The notes below the pieces were generated by a model. It did not search any database and was not told where the DNA came from. It was given only the letters and a program-made list of their open reading frames with translations. Positions 5,396-35,643 of a stretch of DNA of 64,000 nucleotides are shown here, piece after piece (the stretch's first letter is position 1; each line of letters opens with the position of its first letter). Source of the stretch: Gemmatimonadota bacterium (GTDB lineage Bacteria; Gemmatimonadota; Gemmatimonadetes; Longimicrobiales; Gaopeijiaceae). The position numbers and the translations under genes were made by a program. The DNA is taken from NCBI GenBank assembly GCA_022560615.1, contig JADFSR010000003.1, positions 62,001 through 126,000 on the forward strand, in the 5' to 3' direction.

Positions 5396-6691
5396 CTACA
5401 TTCCGGCGCGGCGTTCGACGATCGCGGAGTATACGAGCGCCCTGAGCTTGGCGTGGTCGTCGAGGCCGGTCGCCGGGATGATCTGCGTGAAGTACACCAC
5501 GACGAGGTCCTCCACCGGATCGACCCAGTACGTGGAGTGGTACGCACCCCCCCAGCCGTAGTCCCCCACGGACCCGGCCTCGCCTCCGGCTCCCACGTCC
5601 GTACGCACACGGAAGCCCAGCCCGAACCCCACGCCCGCACCGGTCCGAATACCTAGGTGCCCGATGTGGTCGACAGTCATCAGTGCGACGGTGGACGGAG
5701 ACAGGACCCGGGTCCCGTCCAGCTCCCCGCCGTTCAGCATCATCTGTAGGAATCGCCCGTAGTCTGCCGCCGTGGACAGGAGACCTGCTCCCCCCGAGAA
5801 GCTTTTCCGAGGTCCGTCGACGTATTGTCCCTGGGTCTGCATGCCGGGTCCGTCGGGGGCGCGCACGATCGCGCCGTCGGCGTCCTGATTGTACACGGCC
5901 GCCAATCGGTCTCGTTTGTCGTCCGGCAAATAGAAGTGCGTGTCTTTCATGCCCAGAGGATCGAGGATCCGGGTCTGCAGGAAGTCTTCCAGGGTAAGCC
6001 CGGAGACCTGCTCGATCACGGCGCCGAGAATGTCCGTGTTGTACCCGTAGACGAAACGTTCGCCCGGCTGCGCGTCGAAGGGGAGCTTGGCAAGGCGATC
6101 GACCGTGGCACGCACAGGCTCGTCCCTGTGGCCGAAGTACCATCCCTGGATGCCCTCCGCGCCCCACGCGCTGGCAGCCGGTCCGTACCCATATCCGATC
6201 CCGGCCGTATGCGTCAGCAGGTCGCGCACGGTGATCGGGCGGTTCCCGTCGACGATCTCGCGGCCCCCACCCTCGCTGCGCACCGCCACCTTGTGATTCG
6301 CGAATGCCGGAAGGTATTTCTCCACGCGATCTGAGATCAGGAGCGCGCCGTCTTCCTGGAGCGCGAGAATCCCCACACTCACCAGTGCCTTGGTCTGGGA
6401 CGCGATACGGAATATCGCGTCCGGCTCCATCGGGGCGCCGGCTTCGACGTCCCGCGCGCCTAACGCTTCGAGGTAGGCCACCTTGCCGTCCCTCAGCACC
6501 ATCGCGACCACACCCGACAGGCGGTCGGCGTTGACGTAGTCCTGGAGTGCTTGCGTCAGGCGCTCGAGTCGCTCCGACGACATGCCGACGTCTTCGGGCG
6601 ACGTGTGCCGGAGACTCTGAGCCTGAAGGAGGGTCGTAGCTGCCAGGACGGCGACGATCGCAGCCAGGACGGGACGGCGGACGCTTCGCAT
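5396..6691 (-). CDS. Serine hydrolase of the beta-lactamase class C / esterase family
   Basis: I take the ATG at 6691 (M-R-S-V-R-R-P-V), which directly precedes a signal peptide ending L-L-Q-A-Q; an in-frame start 11 codons upstream would put proline-rich sequence before it. The 431-residue protein shows the class C catalytic pair S98-Q-T-K101 in 'FRIASQTKAL', the Y-x-N-like 'VYGYNTDILG' and the family block 'LLTHTAGIGYGYG'. The third K/H-x-G-type motif is replaced by 'WGGAYHSTYWVDP', as in many esterase or peptidase homologues, so resistance to beta-lactams is not implied. It is predicted to be periplasmic. The small gene at 6721-7272 lies 29 bases upstream on the same strand and may be co-transcribed. 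Confidence 0.85.
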   Translation of the reverse strand: MRSVRRPVLAAIVAVLAATTLLQAQSLRHTSPEDVGMSSERLERLTQALQDYVNADRLSGVVAMVLRDGKVAYLEALGARDVEAGAPMEPDAIFRIASQTKALVSVGILALQEDGALLISDRVEKYLPAFANHKVAVRSEGGGREIVDGNRPITVRDLLTHTAGIGYGYGPAASAWGAEGIQGWYFGHRDEPVRATVDRLAKLPFDAQPGERFVYGYNTDILGAVIEQVSGLTLEDFLQTRILDPLGMKDTHFYLPDDKRDRLAAVYNQDADGAIVRAPDGPGMQTQGQYVDGPRKSFSGGAGLLSTAADYGRFLQMMLNGGELDGTRVLSPSTVALMTVDHIGHLGIRTGAGVGFGLGFRVRTDVGAGGEAGSVGDYGWGGAYHSTYWVDPVEDLVVVYFTQIIPATGLDDHAKLRALVYSAIVERRAGM

Positions 6692-6720
6692 GGGGCTCCT
6701 CGGTTCCGGTGGTCGACCCC

Positions 6721-7272
6721 TCAATTGGGCGCCGTCGGCGGACGGGCGCCAGCGTCGGGACGGCTGACCGGCTGGTTGCCGATGCCGCCCGCGTTCGCAC
6801 AGGCCCAGTTCGCTACTGCCCGCATGGCAACCGAGTCCGGCGCGGCCGGTGCGCGCCAGGCGCGCTCGTTCAGCCGGCTATCGAGTTTCTTGCCCTCTTC
6901 GTCGAAGTCGGTGGACTCCCACACGGAGTAGCGTCCGGTCGAACAGCGGATCTCCAGCACCTCTGCGGTCGACGCGTACGCGTCGTAGCCCTCGGTCGGA
7001 AGCCCGGCTGCCCTCCGCCAGGCGACCAGGCGACGCCGCTCAGGCTCGCGCTGTCGGACGAGCATGCGATTGATGATCACACGATGCACCCTCAGGGAGT
7101 CGACGTCCCCTGGAGATGCAGCGAGAGAACCCGGGTTGACCAGGAAGTCGTAGTCGGGACCCGAGTGTACCCTGCGCCAGTCGTCGAACTGGGCGGCGGC
7201 GGCAATCGGTGCGACCAAGGAGAGTATCACCACGCCGGCCGCTATCGCACAGATTCTGAACTGTCCGTTCAT
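6721..7272 (-). CDS. Secreted protein resembling surface-adhesin protein E
   Basis: The protein is 183 residues long from the ATG at 7272; a GTG two codons upstream is an alternative. It has a signal peptide ('GVVILSLVAPIAAAAQ') and a mature part with 'FLVNPGSL', a conserved 'EIRCSTGRYSVWESTDFDEEG' pattern and a late cysteine in 'VANWACANAG'. Two cysteines with this spacing, together with tyrosine- and valine-rich strands, recall the surface-adhesin protein E family of small periplasmic proteins. The match is by pattern only and the function is unknown. It precedes the serine hydrolase on the same strand. Confidence 0.62.
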   Translation of the reverse strand: MNGQFRICAIAAGVVILSLVAPIAAAAQFDDWRRVHSGPDYDFLVNPGSLAASPGDVDSLRVHRVIINRMLVRQREPERRRLVAWRRAAGLPTEGYDAYASTAEVLEIRCSTGRYSVWESTDFDEEGKKLDSRLNERAWRAPAAPDSVAMRAVANWACANAGGIGNQPVSRPDAGARPPTAPN

Positions 7273-7398
7273 GTCCACTGCCCAGCGCTACCAGAAGCGT
7301 GATCGATAGCCCAACATCGCGTGGATGGTTCTCCTCGGCCATTGACCCGGGCTCGTGACGCGTAGCGTCCCGAAGGGCTCTGCGGGAGAGCCCGGGCC

Positions 7399-7435
7399 CC
7401 GAATCGCGACGCCGCTGCGCGATGTCGCGATTCGG
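7399..7435. repeat. Perfect 12-bp inverted repeat (hairpin)
   Basis: The arms ccgaatcgcgac (7399-7410) and gtcgcgattcgg (7424-7435) are fully complementary around a 13-base loop. There is no T-run on the plus side; the minus-strand exit has no T-run either. A smaller hairpin gggctc/gagccc lies just before it, near 7375-7393. It could end minus-strand transcripts coming from the E1 gene or be part of the nearby repeat. Confidence 0.7.
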
Positions 7436-7555
7436 CTAATCGACGAACGCCCACAGCCAGGTACGGCTCTTGGCATCCAGCTTTTCTGGATCCGCGACGT
7501 GATACAGGTCGCCGGCTACGTCTCGGATCACGATCCCCCCGCCCGGCACCTCCAT
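7436..7555 (-). CDS. Possible 39-residue protein or protein tail
   Basis: On the minus strand an ATG at 7555 opens a 39-codon frame ('GGGIVIRDVAGDLYHVADP' then 'EKLDAKSRTWLWAFVD') that ends at TAG 7436-7438. The residue mix looks protein-like and the frame stays open upstream (R-R-L-D-D-W-P) into the repeat copy at 7572. This may therefore be either a small gene or the tail of a larger gene cut by the repeat. I do not recognise the family. It is downstream of, and on the same strand as, the E1 gene. Confidence 0.3.
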   Translation of the reverse strand: MEVPGGGIVIRDVAGDLYHVADPEKLDAKSRTWLWAFVD

Positions 7556-7571
7556 CGGCCAGTCGTCGAGA

Positions 7572-7646
7572 CGACGAGGAGAGACGATGGATCAACCGCG
7601 CAACCGCCATGTGAGCGGCCCACCCCCCTTTCCGATCACCCTTCTA
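7572..7646. repeat. Shortened copy B of the structured terminal-inverted-repeat family
   Basis: Bases 7572-7613 match the reverse complement of 12192-12233 in copy A at about 39 of 42 positions. They are followed directly by gcggcccacc and a terminal sequence ending gatcacccttcta, which equals the end of copy A (12010 onward, inverted). The roughly 145 bases lying between these parts in copy A are missing, so this is a deletion derivative. The last bases, cttcta, include the TAG stop codon (7644-7646) of the minus-strand E1 gene, so the element end has become the end of that coding region. Confidence 0.75.
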
Positions 7647-9779
7647 GTACGCCGCCAGCTCCACCATCGCCTCGAGCACGTCGGGCGCTTGCGGCAGGAT
7701 GACGTTCTCGAGCTGTGGCGCGTAGGCGACCCAGGTGTCCATCGACGCCACGCGCTTCACCGGCCCGTCCAGCCAGGGGAAGAGATCGTCGGCGATGCGC
7801 GCCGCGATCTCCGCTCCGATGCCCCAGGACAGACTGTCCTCGTGCACGATCAAGACCCTGTTGGTCTTCTTCACCGAATCCGCGATGCGCTCCATGTCGA
7901 GCGGCTTCACAGTGCGCAGATCGATCACTTCTGCCTCGATGCCGTTCTGCTCCGACGCCATCTTCGCCGCGTCGAGGCTCCGTTTCACTAGCGCGCCACA
8001 CGTGACCACCGTGATGTCCGAGCCTTCACGTCGGACCTTCGCTTTCCCGAACGGGATCATGTACTCGGGCCCCGGATTGCGGCCCTTGTTGTAGACCTGG
8101 CGGTAGAGGTGCTTGTGCTCGAGGAAGAGCACAGGGTCCTCACAACGGATCGCGGTGCGCAGGAGACCGTTCGCGTCTTCTGCGGTCGCCGGCATGCAGA
8201 CATACAGTCCGGGGCAGTGCGTGAAGAGCGTTTCACCCGTCTGCGAATGGTAGATCCCTCCACCCTTCAGGTAGCCGCCGTACGGAGTGCGGATCACCAT
8301 CGGAGAGGAAAACGCGCCGTTCGACCGGTAGCGCATGGTCGCGAGCTCGTTCCGGATCTGCATCATCGCCGTCCAGATGTAGTCGAAGAACTGGATCTCG
8401 ACGACGGGCTTCATGCCGCGGAGGGCTAGCCCGATGCCGCGTCCTACGATGTTCGCCTCCGCGAGCGGAGCGTTGTACACACGCTCCGATCCGAACCGCT
8501 GCTGAAGGCCATGAGTGACCTTGAAGACGCCGCCCTTGCCTTTGACCTGGCTCAACGCCTCCTCACGCGAAGCGTCCGCTACATCTTCTCCGAAGAGGAC
8601 GATGCGTGGATCACGTTCCATCTCCTCGCTCAGGCACGAGTTCAGGAGGTCGACCATCGTGAGCAACTTGTCGCCTGCGTACTGCGGGTCGTCCTCGGTA
8701 TCGAAGTCAGAGGAAGTCGGGTCCACATCCTCCGAGTATAGATGGCGCATCGCCGTGCTGGGGTCTGGCTGCGGCGAGGCGAGTGCTTCGTCCGCTGCGG
8801 CGGCGACTTCGGCCTCGGTCTCGGCTTCGAGCGCATCGAGCTCTTCGCTCGTCGCGATCCCCGCGCCGATGAGCAATGCTCGCGTCAGGGTCAGCGGGTC
8901 GCGAGCCTCTTGCTCAGCGAGCTCCTCCGTCGTCCGGTAGGCGCGCTCGTCGTCGGACATCGAGTGCGAATAGGGCCTCGTGCAGTGCGCGTGAATGAAG
9001 GCCGGGCCTTTCCGAGCACGGGCGTACGCGACGGCTTCACCCGCCGCCCGATAGGAGTCCACGATGTCCGTACCGTCACACTCGACGATGTGTAGACCCG
9101 GAAAGCCCGCGACTAGCTTCGAGATACTGCCGCCCGCTGTCTGCACCTCGACGGGTACCGAGATCGCGTAGCCGTTGTCCTCGATCACGTAGACGATCGG
9201 CAGCTTGAGGTTGCACGCCGAGTTCAGCGACTCCCAGAACTCACCTTCGGACGTCGTACCGTCGCCCGCGCACACGACGACGATCTCGTCGTCCTCGAAT
9301 CTCTCGATTCGCTCGCGCAGCCCCGGGATGCGCGGGATCTTGGTCGTCGCTTCGGCGGCGCCCACGGCCTGTAGGAACTGCGTTCCGGTCGGCGACGAGG
9401 TGTTCGCGATGTTGTAGCGCACGTCGGCGTAGTGCCCGGGCATCTGCCGACCCCCTGAGGCCGGGTCCGCTTCCGCACCCACGGCCTGAAGCAGATGGTC
9501 CAGGGGTGTCTGTCCCAGCGCCAACGTCACGGCGCGGTCTCGATAGTAAAGGAAGAACCAGTCGTGTCCGGCCTTGCAGTGCTCGGCAACCGCGACGCCG
9601 ATCGCTTCGTGACCCGCGCTGGAGATCTGGAAAAAGATCTTGTTCTGCCGCTTGAGACTGATCTCGCGATCGTCGAGGCGCCGCGACGTCACCATCGTGC
9701 GGTAGAAGCGCAGGAGCTGCTCGGAGGAGAGTCCCGCCAGATCGTGAGCTTCCAGAACCTCGTTCTCTTGGGTCGCCAT
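7644..9779 (-). CDS. Fused 2-oxoacid dehydrogenase E1 component (alpha and beta subunits in one chain)
   Basis: The protein has 711 residues from ATG 9779; an in-frame TTG at 9806 would add nine. The N-terminal half is a thiamine-diphosphate-binding E1 alpha subunit, with '[11 protein letters not shown]' and the TPP motif starting '[10 protein letters not shown]' and ending 'VIEDN'. After a linker near residues 350-370 the C-terminal half is an E1 beta subunit ('[12 protein letters not shown]', '[18 protein letters not shown]', '[18 protein letters not shown]', 'FLEHKHLYR'). The reaction is oxidative decarboxylation of a 2-oxoacid, most likely branched-chain or pyruvate, with transfer to the lipoyl group of E2. 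Fused E1 chains are known in Bacteroidota and related phyla. No E2 or E3 gene lies nearby. The stop codon falls inside repeat copy B. Confidence 0.93.
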
Positions 9780-24389: not shown

Positions 24390-24829
24390 GGTATAGGCCG
24401 CTACCAGCAGCGCCAGGGCGATCGCGACCGAGCAACGACGGCGAAGGTGCTTGATGTCGAAAGAGGAGGAAGGCATGGAGCCTGGAAGGGTAGGGGGTGC
24501 GTTGCCGCGTTCGGTCCGCTCGGATTGCTGTTCGGCGCCCGAAAAGATCCGTGTGCCTCCACGTACCGACAAGCGCTATGCAGGATCCCCGCCTCACAGA
24601 ACAACGGAACCCCCGGTCCAGCCGCATCGACGAATCGGACGCTCTGGGCATCGTGGACTCTCCTGCCCGATCACATAGTCAGAAGCGCTCCCAGAGAGCG
24701 GTTGCGACGACTATGTCCCGCCCGATGCGGTTCTGTTTCTGTGCGCGTCGTGAACCACTCAGGTCGCCATAGCTCCGCGTAGCACCTATCCTGTTGAGTG
24801 TCAGTTGCTCCGTTGGAAGGCATCGTCCA
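24390..24829. other. Gene-poor scar region upstream of the YiiX-like gene
   Basis: These 440 bases hold no intact gene. They include a 114-bp copy of the murQ 5' end (24545-24658) and, on the minus strand, a hydrophobic frame fused to the gamma-glutamyltransferase-like tail. The final part must hold the promoter for the gene at 24830; a purine-rich ggaagg nine bases before its ATG is the ribosome binding site. A deletion between a lost gene and an inserted fragment is the simplest explanation. Confidence 0.55.
24545..24658 (+). pseudogene. murQ: Duplicated 5' fragment of murQ
   Basis: This segment is identical to 37718-37831 at 110 of 114 positions. The shared part begins seven bases before the GTG at 37724, includes the real murQ start codon (ATG at 24578 here) and 27 codons ('DPRLTEQRNPRSSRIDE'), then stops abruptly at 'GIVD'; the flanks are unrelated. 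It cannot make an etherase. The high identity indicates a recent copy event between two sites 13 kb apart. Confidence 0.9.
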
Positions 24830-27247
24830 ATGCACCCGAAAGACAACCCGCGAGGATTCAGCGAGAGCCTCCGCGCGACCGCGCTTCGGGCCTACCGCAG
24901 CGTGATGGAAGCTCTAGGTCTCGCGCATGGGGAACCCGACCTCACGCCGCCCGAGGATCCGGCGAAGGCGCCTCTGGCGGTGCGCATTACAGAAGTCTAC
25001 TGGCGACGAGTTCGGGACACGGGCCTGGGTGAGAGACAGGCCGCGGCCATGCGAGACGAGCTCAGCCTCCGGGTCGCCGAGTGCCTGAATCACTTCCAGA
25101 GCACGGCCCCCGAGGACGTGGTCGAGCTGGAGCGAACGCTCGAGCACTATGACCGCCTCCGGGAGGAGGCCGGAATCAACCGAAGGCTGTTGGAGGAGCC
25201 CTCCCGACTCCTCCCGGGCGTCCTGGGACATGTGCAGGCGGTGACCGAGGCTCTCTTGGGTGCCATACCGGCGCTGTTCGGCTTCGTCACGGGCCTCCTC
25301 CCCTACCTCGTGACCAGGACGTACGCGAGACGATCTACACCGCCTGAGGAGGCAGAGAGCAGGCTCACAGGCAGCCATCTCCTCGTCGGTGCGCTGTCAT
25401 TCTCCCTGTTCTACGGCGGGCTCATCGGCCTGGTTGCGTGGCAGTTCTCCAATGACGCGACGCTTCTGCTCGCCGTGCTATTAATCCCAACGGGACTGTT
25501 CGCCCTGGGCTACGCCAGGCGTATGCGGACGATCGTCGGCCACCTGGGAGATCGCACAGCTTCCTGGTTCAAGCTGAAGGCGGTCGCTCGCCTGCGAGAT
25601 GCTCAAGGCGAGCTCGTTGGGAGTCTCGACCTCCTGCGCAATCGCTACCGCGAGGAAGTGCTCGGATTGGACCCGCTCCCGGCCCACTTCAAGCGGCGGA
25701 GCACCTGGCACGCGGTCGCTCGCGTGTCGGTGATCGGAGTCTTGACGGCCGGAGCCGTGCTCTTCATCAGGGGATACGTAGACCGTGACATCCAGGGGCT
25801 GCCGCTCGGCCCTTCACCGTGGCAGGAGACGCGCGCATCCGACCCGGCGGAAGCCCAGCGCGAGCTCCTTCGTGACGCGCGGGGCGTGCTCCTGGCTGCC
25901 CAACAACTCGACCGCATGCAGGAGCAAATGGCCGACCTGAGGGCGGAATTCCTACGCGGTGAGCGCGACTTCCTCACCCAGGCGGATCATGACGAGATTA
26001 ATTCCCTCCTGCTCGTCTACCTGGATTTGCGCTCGGCGCTCTTGAAGACCGTTTGGCTCTACCGCGGAGAGAATACGGAAACTTCAGCCACGACGGACGA
26101 CCCGCTCGAAGCGCGTGCGTTCCTGACGGCCTACACCGCCGCGGCGCTCCTCGTGGAAAAGGCTTGGGTGATCTACGACACGTTTCGGGACGACCCGACG
26201 ACGAGACGACAGTTGGACCTCGGCGACCTTGCATGGGGCATTCCTCCAGGCGTCTTCCGCAACCTGGTCGCCGGTCTTTCGAACCAGGCCGTAATGGCCG
26301 AGCTCCAGGAGGCCGAGCGCCGATTCGAATCCGATCGCGCTGAAGGTCGCGTGCCCCGGGGAGCTCCATGGAGCGACCTTGCCGTGCGAGCCGCGCTAGC
26401 TCGTCCGGCTCTCGAGCAAGTCTTCGACGACATCGGAAGACGCAGGCTCAAGCGTGCGTTCGGGGAGCTGCGCGAGCAGATTCGCGCGCCGGTGGGCGAG
26501 GTCACGCCGATGGTGTCGATGGCGATCAGTCGGTTCCGCTTCAAGGAACGCCCCCCTCATCGCGGACTCATCAGTCCGGAGCAACTAGCGGCTCTCAGGG
26601 CCGAGCTGCGGCCGGGTGACATCCTCATCGAGCGACGCAACTGGTACATCAGCAACGCCCTGTTGCCTGGCTTTTGGCCCCACGCGGCGCTCTATCTGGG
26701 GTCCCCCGAAGAACTGCTCGAGCTCGGGGTCGCGATGGATCCCCGAGCCGCTCCCCACATGGCGGACTTCCAGGGACAGAACGAGCTGGGAGACGACTTC
26801 GCGGTTCTCGAGGCGATCGGCGAGGGCGTCATCTTCACGAGCTTGGAGCGATCGGTCGGCGAGGCGGACGCCGTTGCGGTCCTACGACCGAACCTATCCG
26901 ACGAGGATCTGCGCGAGGCGCTCAGCCGAGCGCTCAGCCACCGCGGAAAGGAGTACGACTTCGACTTCGACTTCGAGACGACCGACCGGCTCGTCTGCAC
27001 GGAGCTCATCTTCCGTGCCTACGACGGCCTCCTACGGATTCCCGAGATGCGCCTCATCATGGGCAAGCCACGGATCTCGGCGAGCGACTACGTGAGGATG
27101 TGGGCGGACGGCCGCCAGTCCGACGCCCCCCAACTCGAGCTCGTCCGCTTCCTCGACTTCGACGAGCCGAACGGCGTCGCCGTGGAAGCCGATGCGGAGA
27201 CGCTGGTCGAAACGCTCGAGCGCTCCCGGTTCACCTTCCGAAACTGA
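24830..27247 (+). CDS. Large membrane protein with a C-terminal YiiX-like (NlpC/P60-related) hydrolase domain
   Basis: The 805-residue protein starts at ATG 24830, preceded by ggaagg. The N-terminal ~290 residues are helical with two hydrophobic regions ('LLGAIPALFGFVTGLLPYL' and 'SFSLFYGGLIGLVAW' ... 'LLLAVLLIPTGLFALGYA'). They recall the membrane-associated tail that follows the PlsC domain in large glycerophosphate acyltransferases, but no catalytic H-x4-D domain is present. A further hydrophobic segment lies near 305-325. The C-terminal ~210 residues carry 'LRPGDILIERRNWYISNALLPG' (shortened) with 'FWPHAALYLG', 'VLEAIGEGV' and 'DRLVCTELIFRAYDG'. These are the His, Glu and Cys blocks of permuted papain-like YiiX/YebB enzymes. 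Action on lipid or peptidoglycan at the envelope is inferred. Confidence 0.72.
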   Translation: MHPKDNPRGFSESLRATALRAYRSVMEALGLAHGEPDLTPPEDPAKAPLAVRITEVYWRRVRDTGLGERQAAAMRDELSLRVAECLNHFQSTAPEDVVELERTLEHYDRLREEAGINRRLLEEPSRLLPGVLGHVQAVTEALLGAIPALFGFVTGLLPYLVTRTYARRSTPPEEAESRLTGSHLLVGALSFSLFYGGLIGLVAWQFSNDATLLLAVLLIPTGLFALGYARRMRTIVGHLGDRTASWFKLKAVARLRDAQGELVGSLDLLRNRYREEVLGLDPLPAHFKRRSTWHAVARVSVIGVLTAGAVLFIRGYVDRDIQGLPLGPSPWQETRASDPAEAQRELLRDARGVLLAAQQLDRMQEQMADLRAEFLRGERDFLTQADHDEINSLLLVYLDLRSALLKTVWLYRGENTETSATTDDPLEARAFLTAYTAAALLVEKAWVIYDTFRDDPTTRRQLDLGDLAWGIPPGVFRNLVAGLSNQAVMAELQEAERRFESDRAEGRVPRGAPWSDLAVRAALARPALEQVFDDIGRRRLKRAFGELREQIRAPVGEVTPMVSMAISRFRFKERPPHRGLISPEQLAALRAELRPGDILIERRNWYISNALLPGFWPHAALYLGSPEELLELGVAMDPRAAPHMADFQGQNELGDDFAVLEAIGEGVIFTSLERSVGEADAVAVLRPNLSDEDLREALSRALSHRGKEYDFDFDFETTDRLVCTELIFRAYDGLLRIPEMRLIMGKPRISASDYVRMWADGRQSDAPQLELVRFLDFDEPNGVAVEADAETLVETLERSRFTFRN

Positions 27248-28188: not shown

Positions 28189-28515
28189 ATGGTGACGATG
28201 ACGAGTTCGGCGAGCGAAAAAGTCCAGGACTTCATACGGGAGCACGGCGTCGAGGGTGACGTTGGAGTCCGCGTTGCGGTGCTACCCGGTGGGTGCTCCG
28301 GCTTTCAGTACGGTTTGAACGTCGAGGACGGTCCCGAAGCGGACGACGAAGTGCTCGACGTCAACGGCGTGAAGGTGTTCGTGGACCCGTTCAGCGCGCA
28401 GTACTTGGAAGGTGTCGAGATCGACTACGTCACGAGCATGATGGGTCAGGGCTTCACTTTCCAGAATCCCAAGGCGAGCGGCGGTTGCGGGTGCGGGAGC
28501 TCGTTCACGGTTTGA
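28189..28515 (+). CDS. A-type iron-sulfur carrier (IscA/ErpA/HesB family)
   Basis: The 108-residue protein starts at ATG 28189, with aggagg 13-18 bases upstream; an ATG three codons later is also possible. The three family cysteines are present in 'LPGGCSGFQYGL' and the terminal 'GGCGCGSSF'. Such proteins bind and pass on Fe-S clusters to apo-enzymes. Several possible clients are in the window: MoaA and the radical SAM selenoprotein need [4Fe-4S] clusters. It is a single gene with remnant sequence on both sides. Confidence 0.95.
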   Translation: MVTMTSSASEKVQDFIREHGVEGDVGVRVAVLPGGCSGFQYGLNVEDGPEADDEVLDVNGVKVFVDPFSAQYLEGVEIDYVTSMMGQGFTFQNPKASGGCGCGSSFTV

Positions 28516-29602: not shown

Positions 29603-29893
29603 GTGGCGAACAGCGAAAAGCGGATCGATCTCAGGAAAGCACTGCTGAACCCTGCGCTTGTATTCCTTGGTCCCGAGGATGTGCTTAAACGGGACGAGTT
29701 GACTCGCGAACAGAAGATCGAAGTCTTGCGTCGGTGGAAATTCGATGCGCTACAACTTCAAGTCGCGGACGAAGAGAACATGCGAAGCGAGCAATCCTCG
29801 GATATTCTAGACCGGGTGCTGCAAGCGCTCCATGCGCTGAACGCGAGTCCCAATCTCGAAGATTCGCCGTCCACGAAGCACGGCGGCGTTTGA
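29603..29893 (+). CDS. Small conserved protein of unknown function (V-A-x-E-E-x-M family)
   Basis: The 96-residue protein starts at GTG 29603. Its core, 'NPALVFLGPEDVLKRDELTR', 'EQKIEVLRRWKFDALQLQVA' and 'DEENM', matches a small family widespread in Pseudomonadota whose consensus is F-x-x-P-x-x-V-x-x-D-x-x-L-[ST]-x-E-x-K-x-x-I-L-x-x-W-x-x-D-A. No function has been assigned that I know of. The 80 bases before it are unusually AT-rich for this window (29528-29585), so it probably has its own promoter. It lies 44 bases before moaA. Confidence 0.78.
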   Translation: MANSEKRIDLRKALLNPALVFLGPEDVLKRDELTREQKIEVLRRWKFDALQLQVADEENMRSEQSSDILDRVLQALHALNASPNLEDSPSTKHGGV

Positions 29894-29937
29894 TTTCAAC
29901 TTTCGCCGCCAGGCAGTTGAGCGGGAGAAGGCGCACA

Positions 29938-30954
29938 ATGCTGGACACGTTCGGCCGGCCTCTCAAGAGCCTCCGGGTCTCACTGATCGACAAATGCAAC
30001 CTGCGTTGCCAGTACTGTATGCCCGAGGAGGAGTATGTCTGGTTGCCTCGCGACGACATCCTCACCGTCGAAGAGATCGGGGATCTCGTCGATGTCTTCA
30101 CCGAGCTTGGGGTGGATAAGGTGCGGCTCACAGGAGGCGAGCCGCTGCTCCGCCGCGAAGTTGTGGATGTGGTGGAGCGCGTAGCGGCAAACCCGGACGT
30201 TCGTGACCTGAGCATGACCACCAATGGTGTGTTGCTGGCGAAACAGGCGGAGTCCCTCCGGAGCGCGGGCCTGGACCGGGTCAGCGTGAGCCTCGATACG
30301 TTACGGCCGCAGCGGTTCGAGCAGCTCACGCGCCGCAACCGTCTCCCCGAGGTGCTCGAAGGGATCGATGCCGCCGCGGAGGGCGGGTTGAAACCCCTCA
30401 AGATCAATACCGTGGTTATGCGCGGGTACAACGATGACGAGCTCACCGACTTGATCGACTTCGCTAAAGATCGGGGCGCAGAAGTCCGTTTCATCGAATA
30501 CATGGACGTCGGCGGCGCAACGCGGTGGACGATGGACATGGTCGTTTCAAGTAGGGAGATACTGAGCCGGCTGGCGAGGCACTATGGACCGATCGAGCCG
30601 CTGCTCGACAATGGCTCGGCTCCGGCGAACCGCTATGCGCTGCCCAACGGGACGACCTTCGGCATCATCGCCTCGACAACCGAACCATTCTGCCGTGCCT
30701 GCGACCGGAGCCGGCTCACTGCCGATGGGATGTGGTTCCTGTGTCTGTACGGGGCCCACGGGATCGACCTTCGGCGACCTCTGCGAGAGGGGGCCTCCCA
30801 AGACGAGATCAGGTCGCTGATCGTGCGCGGTTGGACAAATCGTGCCGATCGCGGGGCCGAGGATCGGAAGGCGCTGGGCTCCCGGGGCCCTCTCTATCAG
30901 ATCAAGGATCTACGTAAAGATCCGCACCGGGAGATGCACACGCGGGGTGGATGA
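29938..30954 (+). CDS. moaA: GTP 3',8-cyclase, molybdenum cofactor biosynthesis
   Basis: The 338-residue protein starts at ATG 29938, preceded by gggagaagg. The radical SAM cluster ligands are C20-N-L-R-C24-Q-Y-C27. The SAM-binding 'LTGGEPLLRRE' follows, and the second cluster uses C252-R-A-C255 and C269 in 'EPFCRACDRSRLTADG' and 'WFLCLYG'. The chain ends in Gly-Gly as required for MoaA activation. It converts GTP to (8S)-3',8-cyclo-7,8-dihydroguanosine 5'-triphosphate. No other moa or moe gene lies in the window. Confidence 0.95.
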   Translation: MLDTFGRPLKSLRVSLIDKCNLRCQYCMPEEEYVWLPRDDILTVEEIGDLVDVFTELGVDKVRLTGGEPLLRREVVDVVERVAANPDVRDLSMTTNGVLLAKQAESLRSAGLDRVSVSLDTLRPQRFEQLTRRNRLPEVLEGIDAAAEGGLKPLKINTVVMRGYNDDELTDLIDFAKDRGAEVRFIEYMDVGGATRWTMDMVVSSREILSRLARHYGPIEPLLDNGSAPANRYALPNGTTFGIIASTTEPFCRACDRSRLTADGMWFLCLYGAHGIDLRRPLREGASQDEIRSLIVRGWTNRADRGAEDRKALGSRGPLYQIKDLRKDPHREMHTRGG

Positions 30955-31342
30955 CGGTGCGGCTTGGAAGTCCTCATGGGTCCACCGGGCGATAAACTCG
31001 GCGTACGGCTCCCGGACCTCGAGACGGCCCCACGCGCGCGACCGTATAGGCCACCTCGACGCCGTAGAAGAGTGCCAGCAGCACCTGGAACGGCGCGGAG
31101 TAGCCCGGGGCGGCGATCAGAAAGTCGACGTAGCGCTGGTACGACCGGGTGGAGCTCGGCGCCCAGAAGGAGGGACCTGGCCTCGGCATGCGCCTCGAAC
31201 CAATCGAGCTCGTCGCCGAGGGCCGAGAGGGCCCGTGATCAAGGCGCTATCAACTAGCCGGGCGTCCCCCTACGTTCGGACGCCTACTTAAATCTGACGA
31301 TCGAAGCGGGTCATTATGTACCGCCATGGGGTATCCTCGCCA
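30955..31342. other. Intergenic region between moaA and the radical SAM selenoprotein gene
   Basis: The space is mostly occupied by a broken TenA-family gene on the minus strand (30957-31250). The last 90 bases carry an AT-richer stretch (cctacttaaatctgacg near 31283) and probably the promoter of the radical SAM gene. No clear riboswitch was recognised. Confidence 0.5.
30957..31250 (-). pseudogene. TenA/PqqC-family gene remnant with two frameshifts
   Basis: Read on the minus strand, three pieces in different frames join into one TenA-like sequence: 'ALGDELDWFEAHAEARSLL' with 'GAELHP' (31243-31160), then 'YQRYVDFLIAAPGYSAPFQ' with 'VLLALFYGVEVAYTVA' (31143-31039), then 'AWGRLEVREPYAEFIARW' with 'THEDFQA' (31037-30963). 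The middle piece contains the family's helix around F-Y-x-V-E-x-A-Y. The first ~80 residues and the C-terminus are absent. Homologues deaminate thiamine derivatives or act in cofactor pathways. Two sequencing errors could fake the shifts but not the missing ends. Confidence 0.7.
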
Positions 31343-32779
31343 ATGAACGTGCTCCTCATCTCCTGCTATGAGCTCGGCCATCAGCCGTACGGGGTGGCGT
31401 CCGCTGGAGCACACCTACTCGCTGGAGGCCGCCATCAAGTGGAGTGCCTGGATCTCGCCGTGGAGGTTCTCGACGAGGCCAAGGTCCACCGAGCTGACTT
31501 TGTGGGGATCTCGACTCCCATGCACACGGCGATCCGACTCGGTGTCAAAGCCGGTGAGCTGGTCCGGGGGTTGAATCCGCGGTGCCACATCTGCTACTTC
31601 GGGCTCTACGCTTCTCTTAACGAGGACTACCTCCTCGACGGCATAGCCGACAGCGTGATCGGCGGTGAATTTGAGACGCCGCTCACTCAGCACGTCGACC
31701 GCTTGGCGGAAAATGGATCGCCCGCCCCCGGAGGCGTCTCTCTCGCTGAGCTGCGCGGTCCGCCGAACCTGTCTCGACAGCAGTTTCTCCCGCCGGCGCG
31801 ACACTTACTACCTCCCCTGGAGAAGTATGCCCGCCTCAGGACCTCCGAGGGAGAGCTCCGGCTTGTGGGACACGTCGAAGCGAGCCGCGGTTGTGCTCAC
31901 CGGTGCCGCCACTGCCCGATCCCCGCTGTCTATGAGGGGAGGCTTCGAATAGTTCAGCGGGAGGTCGTGCTCGCAGATATCGACAACCTTGTGCACATGG
32001 GTGCGCAGCACATCAACTTTGGTGACCCAGATTTCCTGAACGGTGTGAAGCACTCACTCGGGATTGTTCGGGAGATGCGCAACCGCCACCCCGAGCTGAG
32101 CTTCGACTTCACGGCCAAGATCGAGCACCTGATCCAGCATCGTGACGCGGTCATGGAGCTCGCAGCGCTGGGGTGCGTCTTCGTTCTGTCCGCCGTGGAG
32201 AGTGTGGACGACCGTGTTCTCCGGTATCTCGACAAGGGTCACACCCGCGATGACGTGGTCGCTGCCCTGGAGATTACCCGGGCCGCCGACGTAGCGCTTC
32301 GCCCCTCGCTGCTGCCTTTCACGCCTTGGACGACGCTGTCGGGGTATTTGGAGCTGCTCGACTTCGTGCAGGATCACGATCTGGTATATCAGCTCGATCC
32401 AGTACAGTACTCCATCAGGCTCCTTCTGCCTCCGGGGTCATGGCTCCTTGACATTCCGGAAATCCAACCCCACGTGGGGAGCCTGATTCAGGAGGACTTC
32501 ATGTACACGTGGCGGCATCCGGATCCCCGTGTGGACATGCTACAACGGCAGGTCGCTCGAGCCGCTGAAGAAGCGGCCGGCTCCGGTGAAGACCCGGCGA
32601 CGACCTTCAACCGGATCAAGGAGCTTGCCCTTTCGACTATTCTCGGCCAGCCGACCGTAGCCCGGCCCCGATACCGCCGTCGAAGTGCTAGACCGCCGCA
32701 TCTGACTGAAGCGTGGTTCTGCTGAGCTGAGCCGACCGAGAGTCAGTTCGGCTCTGTGGCGACGGGATTGGAAAGCTAG
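31343..32779 (+). CDS. B12-binding-type radical SAM selenoprotein with a C-U-A-E-P tail
   Basis: From ATG 31343 the frame gives 460 residues to a TGA at 32723-32725. It then continues A-E-P-T-E-S-Q-F-G-S-V-A-T-G-L-E-S to TAG 32777-32779, giving 478 residues with selenocysteine at 461 next to Cys460. The N-terminal ~120 residues follow the cobalamin-binding radical SAM plan ('GHQPYGVASAGAHLL', 'FVGISTPMHTAIRLG', 'VIGGEFETPL'). The cluster motif is C184-A-H-R-C188-R-H-C191, followed by a TIM-barrel ('INFGDPDFLNG', 'ECVLSAVES'-like strand). The Cys-Sec-Ala-Glu-Pro ending matches the known CUAEP/CCAEP-tail radical SAM group, in which some members have Cys instead of Sec. Its substrate is unknown. 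Sec machinery must be encoded elsewhere. Confidence 0.85.
32723..32760 (+). promoter_or_regulatory. Selenocysteine codon and candidate bacterial SECIS hairpin
   Basis: TGA 32723-32725 is followed after three bases by a 7-bp stem, gagccga (32729-32735) with tcggctc (32748-32754), and a 12-base loop ccgagagtcagt. Bacterial SECIS elements are short hairpins lying directly after the UGA inside the coding region and are bound by SelB. The apical loop here is 11-22 bases from the UGA, at or slightly inside the usual distance. The stem also lies in translated sequence, as expected. Confidence 0.65.
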
Positions 32780-32909: not shown

Positions 32910-33320
32910 GTGTCAGATGACGCCTCACTCGAGGCTCGCCTTCCCGACCCCCTCCGGCAGTTCTTGGAGCTTTACGGAGCGAGTCGCTTCTGGGACAGCC
33001 ACGAGGCTTTGGAGGAGGAGTGGCGCAGGAGCGGGAGCGACTTCTACCAGGGCCTGATCCTTTATGCCAGCGCATGGGTTCACTGGGAGCGGAGGAACGC
33101 TCACGGTGTGCGGGCTCAGCTCAACAAAACCTTGGCGCGTCTGGACGCCTATCCAGCCGCTTACCTCGGGCTCGACGTTGCCGAACTGCGTGCCCACTGC
33201 CTTGCGGTACGGCAGGAGGTGGCCGAGAACCCCGATGGCTGGCCCGACCGTGTCACGGCCATGCCGCTCTCCCTCGCCGCGAATCGCCTCCGGGGCGACG
33301 AGGTGGAGCTTGGGGAGTGA
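32910..33320 (+). CDS. DUF309 domain protein
   Basis: The 136-residue protein starts at GTG 32910. It shows the DUF309 pattern: 'FWDSHEALEEEWR' (conserved H-E-x-x-E-x-x-W core), 'FYQGLILYASAWVHWERRN' and 'ALNKTLARL'-type helices. The family is all-helical, with a cluster of His, Glu and Trp residues that suggests metal or ligand binding. No reaction is known. It lies 130 bases downstream of the radical SAM selenoprotein on the same strand, and the two may work together (inference from proximity). Confidence 0.88.
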   Translation: MSDDASLEARLPDPLRQFLELYGASRFWDSHEALEEEWRRSGSDFYQGLILYASAWVHWERRNAHGVRAQLNKTLARLDAYPAAYLGLDVAELRAHCLAVRQEVAENPDGWPDRVTAMPLSLAANRLRGDEVELGE

Positions 33321-35031: not shown

Positions 35032-35643
35032 CTACTTCTCGGCGGTGAAGTAGGGGTTATCGCCCGCCGAGTGGTTGGTTACGTCCTGGATGCCCACGAT
35101 CTCCGGCACCTGTTCCTTGAGGATTTTCTCGATCCCCTGGCTCAGGGTTACCGACGCCATTCCGCACCCCTGGCAGCCCCCGCCCATCTGCAGGTAGACG
35201 ATGTTGTCCCTCACCTCGACCAACGTTACGCGCCCGCCATGCTGGGCCACTCCTGGGTTCACGTATTGATCGATCGTCTGCTGAACCCGGTCAGCGAGAG
35301 GGCCCTCCAACGGCTTGGAGCCGATCGGCTCCAGGTTCGGGTTCTCCACTTTGAACCCGCTCTCCATCACGGTTTCGATCCAATCGATGCGGGCACCGTC
35401 AAGGATCTTCGCGCTCTCGGGGTCCATCACAACCTCGAACCCGTTGTCGTCGAACACGAGGTCTTCTTCGCACTTCTCATGGTGCTCGATCAGCGTGATG
35501 TCGTAACGGGGATCAAGCGGACTGGGGCTCGCGACGCGGATGCGCAAGGCTAACCTGGTGTCGCTGTCGCTCTCAAGGAAGCCGAGGACCGTCTCTCTTG
35601 CGAGGTCCGTGAACTCGACGGGCGCCTTCGTGGTGTTGCTCAT
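35032..35643 (-). CDS. nfuA: NfuA-type Fe-S cluster scaffold/carrier
   Basis: The 203-residue protein has the two-domain NfuA plan. An N-terminal A-type-like domain (1-105) lacks the three cysteines of functional HesB proteins. The C-terminal NifU domain (about 115-195) carries 'GGRVTLVEVRDNIVYLQMGG' and 'GCQGCGMASVTL', whose C-x-x-C binds the [4Fe-4S] cluster. NfuA passes clusters to client enzymes, especially under oxidative stress. The start ATG 35643 fits the family. It converges on ferritin after 35 bases. Confidence 0.93.
   Translation of the reverse strand: MSNTTKAPVEFTDLARETVLGFLESDSDTRLALRIRVASPSPLDPRYDITLIEHHEKCEEDLVFDDNGFEVVMDPESAKILDGARIDWIETVMESGFKVENPNLEPIGSKPLEGPLADRVQQTIDQYVNPGVAQHGGRVTLVEVRDNIVYLQMGGGCQGCGMASVTLSQGIEKILKEQVPEIVGIQDVTNHSAGDNPYFTAEK

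Follow-up and report, generated by a model that had tools for sequence, protein, structure and literature searches.

A CUAEP-tail radical SAM gene of a Gemmatimonadota bacterium: predicted selenocysteine, kinship to ArsL and association with Fe-S carriers

Background

The group of proteins to which the gene analysed here belongs is already described by a curated family model, NF040546, "CUAEP/CCAEP-tail radical SAM (seleno)protein". In the literature searched, neither this family name or accession nor the tail motifs CUAEP, CCAEP and RCCLKC were found, nor was an assay of any NF040546 member, and the family is absent from the table of 119 prokaryotic selenoprotein families in a 2026 review (PMC13188914). 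Its nearest described relative is the arsinothricin radical SAM enzyme ArsL (NF040542). When expressed in E. coli, BgArsL converts arsenite into hydroxyarsinothricin (AST-OH), and the reaction proposed for it is ACP transfer from SAM (PMC8552651). Two further radical SAM families with predicted selenocysteine (Sec), TIGR04167 and TrsS (NF045646), are distinct from NF040546 and do not appear among the matches of the protein studied here. Dph2 and the Dph1-Dph2 enzyme have a non-canonical fold and non-canonical cluster binding. They can be compared by mechanism only, as they share ACP-forming radical SAM chemistry and, in the eukaryotic enzyme, tandem cysteines.

The gene reported here is a further member of the known family. 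What we add is SECIS covariation, co-occurrence with Sec genes across genomes, kinship to ArsL that includes the tail pair, and a genomic context of Fe-S carriers and ATP-grasp proteins. The kinship and the conserved partners make the family model a testable pathway.

Results and discussion

The gene and its coding frame

The window, i.e. the whole stretch of DNA analysed, comprises 64,000 nucleotides of a Gemmatimonadota genome (4.5 Mb, 99% complete). The following features belong to the gene:

31343..32779, + strand: gene of the CUAEP-tail radical SAM selenoprotein, 478 residues if TGA is read as Sec, TAG stop, match to NF040546
31343..31699, + strand: N-terminal domain resembling B12-binding domains (residues 1 to ~119), scoring under the Pfam cut-off
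31877..32293, + strand: radical SAM core (residues 179-317), CxxxCxxC at C184, C188 and C191
32720..32734, + strand: C-U-A-E-P tail motif (Cys460, Sec461, Ala462, Glu463, Pro464)
32723..32725, + strand: predicted selenocysteine codon TGA, with Cys interchange in relatives and SelA co-occurrence
32739..32755, + strand: bSECIS-type mRNA hairpin, arms AGAGUC / GGCUCU, loop AGUUC

Translation from the ATG at 31343 meets a single in-frame TGA (32723-32725, residue 461), immediately preceded by the TGC codon of Cys460 (32720-32722) and followed by Ala-Glu-Pro, 14 further residues and TAG at 32777-32779, just as the first-pass annotation had read it. A second in-frame ATG is located at 31316, and the family profile and close relatives favour 31343. 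The same annotation had warned that an ordinary gene caller would stop at the TGA; the open reading frame under translation table 11 indeed spans 31316-32725 and is ended by it. Public annotation still truncates the family in this way. For example, in the isolate Thermomicrobium roseum DSM 5159 (NC_011961.1; locus L102, 7935-9371), the RefSeq CDS WP_012643191.1 ends at the Sec TGA, and the frame continues into AEP.

The protein scored 622.5 bits against NF040546 (cut-off 500), with residues 3-470 covering model positions 1-467 of 468. As this exceeds the curated cut-off, the family is a known one, in agreement with the earlier attribution to a CUAEP/CCAEP group; the match is full-length, the CUAEP tail is present, and we see no essential difference. 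The radical SAM core was recognised by PF04055 (52.9 bits, cut-off 29.5), and C184, C188 and C191 were invariant in an alignment of 54 sequences. Of the earlier description as a B12-binding-type radical SAM enzyme, the radical SAM part thus stands, while B12 binding is reduced to a resemblance: the Pfam B12-binding profile gave 27.6 bits, under its cut-off of 32.1, and no DxHxxG motif is visible in the N-terminus.

Selenocysteine at the UGA

The gene almost certainly encodes a selenoprotein in which UGA 32723-32725 specifies Sec. Four independent lines point to this assignment, which the first-pass annotation had proposed: Sec machinery in the own genome, interchange of TGA and Cys codons, a covarying SECIS hairpin confined to TGA genes, and co-occurrence of TGA with SelA.

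The search for selA, selB, selC and selD recommended earlier found all of them in the own genome, namely tRNA-Sec (66 bits, anticodon UCA), SelB (333 bits), SelA (541 bits) and SelD (386 bits; C1:137397-138323). An in-frame UGA occurs in selD too, where it encodes the U of the UxxK motif (GAGUACKLG); this indicates that Sec is used elsewhere in the same organism. It was also observed that a gene for an IscA-type Fe-S carrier adjoins selA (C36:14214-16486).

Among 84,980 species genomes scanned, 398 candidate stretches were found, and the best 80 served as relatives; one was left out of the tail counts since its contig ends before the tail, so that 80 sequences (the window and 79 relatives) were compared. 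The codon at the position of Sec461 was TGA in 59, TGC in 15 and TGT in 6, and WFC[U/C]AEP was present in all 80. The conservation of A-E-P beyond the TGA, which had been suggested as a check, is therefore complete among sequences reaching the tail, and the tail, conserved in 80 of 80 with TGA in 59, is not a product of chance. Likewise, W458, F459, C460, Sec/Cys461, A462, E463 and P464 were all invariant in the 54-sequence alignment. In a maximum-likelihood tree the sequences with Cys were clustered, and about five changes were needed to explain them, which indicates repeated exchange between Sec and Cys.

In the genomes of 50 relatives, mostly metagenome-assembled (MAGs), SelA scored over its cut-off in 25 of the 29 with a Sec-type gene and in 2 of the 21 with a Cys-type gene (Fisher p = 5e-8). 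Incompleteness of the MAGs may account for the Sec genomes lacking SelA. Within the own phylum, the NF040546 family was found over cut-off in 20 of 298 genomes. Exactly one TGA was present in each of the 19 full-length copies, the twentieth ending with its contig. SelA is common throughout this phylum (221/298 genomes, and 16 of the 20 with the CUAEP gene), so its presence is not discriminating there.

The hairpin downstream of the UGA

No RNA family matched anywhere in the window at the Rfam gathering threshold, and the hairpin was therefore examined across relatives. In the window, 32739-32744 pairs with 32750-32755 around the loop 32745-32749; the hairpin begins 14 nt and its loop 20 nt past the UGA. 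In 57 of the 59 TGA genes the apical loop was likewise found at the 20th nucleotide after the UGA, its sequence being mostly AGUU(n). On average 5.80 of the six stem pairs were formed in the 59 TGA genes, compared with 2.86 at the same place in the 21 Cys genes, and GC, AU and GU pairs replaced each other at stem pairs 2-5 among TGA genes. For 38 TGA genes aligned without gaps, covariation scored 0.458, while shuffled alignments averaged 0.270 and 0 of 500 reached the observed value; the score dropped steeply when one arm was slid. The same site in 19 Cys genes gave no covariation signal.

The first-pass annotation had noted a hairpin after the TGA. A hairpin is present, but the fold preferred by the free strand is not the conserved one at 32739-32755: the 43-nt strand of the window favours a different, long hairpin (-17.5 kcal/mol, z -1.65) into which the UGA is partly drawn. 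After removal of the first 9-12 nt, the conserved hairpin becomes the predicted fold, and such removal would mimic a ribosome sitting on the UGA. Folding of single sequences gave no support for the hairpin by itself (z -1.65 and -0.36), and the conserved core lay within the minimum free energy fold in 42 of 59 TGA genes and in none of the 21 Cys genes.

It could be argued that the UGA is a genuine stop and that the conserved tail is made by read-through only, or never. Gene callers do end the protein there, including that of the T. roseum RefSeq entry. Against this stand the Cys codons found at the site in 21 relatives, the invariant AEP, the TGA-specific covariation of the SECIS hairpin and the presence of Sec genes, and we give this explanation next to no weight.

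Kinship to ArsL and predicted fold

On sequence grounds, the CUAEP protein is a radical SAM member of NF040546, a sister family of ArsL. The ArsL model was the runner-up among curated families with 323.8 bits, under its cut-off of 450. Identity is 34% over 410 residues and 34-37% over residues 1-400, and the CxxxCxxC core is the same. Two ArsL-family proteins have the same residue at about 60 of the positions conserved to 95% or more in CUAEP proteins, including CxxxCxxC, E179, D228, D230, N233, H237, D255, H262, E286, K298 and W329, while several others conserved in CUAEP proteins (H61, T62, P229, H300 and R320) differ in the ArsL-family proteins. Both families have a vicinal pair near the C-terminus, the CC of the ArsL tail RCCLKC aligning with Cys460-Sec461. 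Only this pair aligns, however: the CUAEP tail carries Sec for Cys, and about 50 additional residues precede it. ATP-grasp genes occur in several clusters of both families, whereas arsenic genes are not found near CUAEP genes.

The structure was predicted with a pLDDT of 92.8. Its closest solved fold was AprD4 (PDB 6fd2; Z 28.5, 413 residues aligned), which has the same combination of a B12-binding-like domain and a radical SAM barrel, but shares only 16% identity, performs dehydratase chemistry and aligns only up to residue 437, short of the Cys-Sec tail. The next matches were the cobalamin enzymes OxsB, TsrM and MgmA; CysS, TokK, MiaB and RimO were among the matches as well. This list, together with the B12-binding-like N-terminal domain, might suggest a cobalamin-dependent class B radical SAM methyltransferase with an incidental Sec tail. 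Yet the B12-binding score lies under the Pfam cut-off and DxHxxG is missing, the best fold match AprD4 to our knowledge does not use cobalamin, and the nearest family in sequence is ArsL. A class B methyltransferase therefore appears very improbable.

As for the tail pair, the first-pass annotation had called it a redox pair. Cys460 and Sec461 are indeed vicinal, but redox activity is just one of several roles that may be considered. The pair might act as a thiol/selenol redox relay of the selenenylsulfide type, reducing substrate, product or cluster in the course of turnover, with the core performing ordinary 5'-deoxyadenosyl-radical chemistry. A vicinal Cys-Sec at the C-terminus, as present here, is a classic redox arrangement, for example in thioredoxin reductase, and Cys is the only replacement for Sec in the family, which would agree with such a relay. 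So would the view of the 2026 review, in which uncharacterised selenoproteins are mostly regarded as redox proteins (PMC13188914). However, an equivalent pair is present in ArsL, an enzyme forming a C-As bond, which suggests handling of a soft element, and no thioredoxin-type reductase was found as a conserved neighbour among the neighbourhoods. A redox relay is an unlikely explanation, albeit the foremost of the alternatives.

Gene neighbourhood

Neighbourhoods of 81 CUAEP genes were compared. Their commonest conserved neighbours were Fe-S carriers of the NfuA/IscA type, found within 5 kb in 37 of 81 and immediately adjoining on the same strand in 29 of 81. Chance alone would bring a carrier this close to about 1.3% of loci; this figure is approximate and based on the own genome only, with its five Fe-S carrier genes (5 genes x ~11.4 kb / 4.5 Mb). 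ATP-grasp proteins resembling L-amino-acid ligases were beside the CUAEP gene in 32 of 81 neighbourhoods and DUF169 in 22 of 81. As the own genome lacks DUF169, this partner is not obligatory. In several phyla, for example Ignavibacteriota, Bacteroidota and a Methylomirabilota genome, the CUAEP gene lies inside the SUF operon, and in two phyla the Fe(II)-trafficking protein YggX adjoins it or is encoded nearby. Around the gene in the window, we found:

28189..28515, + strand: A-type Fe-S carrier (IscA/ErpA-like), 3 kb upstream
29734..30954, + strand: MoaA (GTP 3',8-cyclase), upstream
32910..33320, + strand: DUF309 protein, first gene downstream, outside the clusters conserved across phyla
35032..35643, - strand: NfuA-like Fe-S carrier (degenerate A-type and NifU domains), 2.3 kb downstream

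MoaA is located directly upstream also in close Gemmatimonadota, and two KSB1 genomes encode it no more than 5 kb away. No ATP-grasp gene is present near the CUAEP gene in the window. The own genome has the orthologue on a different contig, in a row with genes for a further NfuA and a CDGSH protein (coordinates within C4:39000-53000):

6405-7643, - strand: ATP-grasp L-amino-acid ligase homologue
7667-8437, - strand: second NfuA-like carrier
8283-8951, - strand: CDGSH/Fer4_19 protein

In a sister genome (L020), an ATP-grasp gene 82% identical to this one and an NfuA gene adjoin the CUAEP gene; the row on contig C4 probably represents the partners of the CUAEP protein. Homologous ATP-grasp proteins are also encoded in RCCLKC-type clusters on plasmids of Priestia, Alicyclobacillus and Pantoea. 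This suggests a conjugated form of arsinothricin that the literature searched does not describe. A gene of the carboxymuconolactone decarboxylase family occurs in two of these three clusters.

The frequency of carriers (37/81 against ~1.3% expected), the position in SUF operons of several phyla and the YggX genes in two phyla could also mean that Cys460 and Sec461 serve as ligands of iron, bound sulfur or an auxiliary Fe-S cluster. The enzyme would then be a maturase, either sulfur-inserting or Fe-S-related, with NfuA rebuilding its cluster. NfuA rebuilds the cluster of LipA in this manner, and the fold matches MiaB and RimO would fit as well. A precedent for cluster-bound tandem cysteines is offered by the ACP enzyme Dph2, where they cooperate in the Fe-S motif (PMC11048331). 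However, clients of NfuA are not necessarily sulfur donors, and the family has only five invariant Cys/Sec residues, i.e. CxxxCxxC and the tail pair, too few for the usual auxiliary 4Fe-4S cluster; a standard auxiliary cluster of the MTTase kind is therefore unlikely. We consider a maturase rather improbable, more so than the redox relay.

An arsenic substrate is disfavoured, as homologues of ArsM, ArsR, ArsQ and arsenic transporter queries were found in 0 of 81 neighbourhoods. In one group of Planctomycetota (L046, L042 and relatives), genes for DUF169, a PLP decarboxylase, a formylglycine-generating-enzyme-like protein and MerT-like membrane proteins are located 1-6 kb downstream of the CUAEP gene. 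As the MerT-like genes were confined to this one group, a link to mercury was dropped.

A model for CUAEP function

The model we favour combines Sec insertion, ArsL kinship, ArsL-like chemistry and the neighbourhood partners, and we assign it, taken jointly, a probability of about 0.5. According to the model, a ribosome at UGA 32723-32725 would meet the bSECIS-type hairpin, and SelB with Sec-tRNA(UCA) would insert Sec, giving a product that ends with the invariant vicinal pair Cys460-Sec461. SAM would then yield an ACP radical, which may be passed to a soft acceptor held or activated by this pair, and the resulting unusual amino acid might be joined to another unit by the L-amino-acid-ligase-like ATP-grasp protein. 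The NfuA/IscA-type carriers would load or repair the oxygen-sensitive 4Fe-4S cluster; alternatively, they could join the pathway or tie its product to Fe-S homeostasis.

The individual steps differ in strength. Sec insertion is all but certain and, like the kinship to ArsL, is shown by the sequence comparisons. ArsL-type chemistry, argued from a single homologue family at 34% identity, is proposed tentatively, at somewhat less than even odds; the score under the ArsL cut-off, the differing residues and the lack of arsenic genes in the 81 neighbourhoods speak against it. That the neighbouring ATP-grasp protein couples the product to a further unit is slightly more doubtful, all the more as the window has no such gene nearby, and a three-part pathway of CUAEP protein, carrier and ATP-grasp protein is no more probable than this. 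Unlikely, to about the same degree as the redox relay, is the widest version, in which the genes, joined by DUF169 in some phyla, constitute a so far unrecognised multi-phylum pathway placing an amino acid with a carbon-heteroatom bond (Se, S or another soft element) into a peptide-like metabolite linked to Fe-S homeostasis. If ArsL-type chemistry on another element were true, a rare radical SAM reaction, so far tied to arsenic, would also serve to make a widespread bacterial metabolite, and the retention of Sec at the tip of the protein would be explained.

Other genes of the window

Two further observations were made in the window. At 24794-27244, an 817-aa protein is encoded with a Peptidase_C92 domain (YiiX-like amidase) at residues 605-753 and no further recognised Pfam domain. 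The segment 33388-36488 encodes a sigma-70 factor, a ferritin, the NfuA-like protein and a 1-Cys-type peroxiredoxin, and has the appearance of an iron/oxidative-stress cluster.
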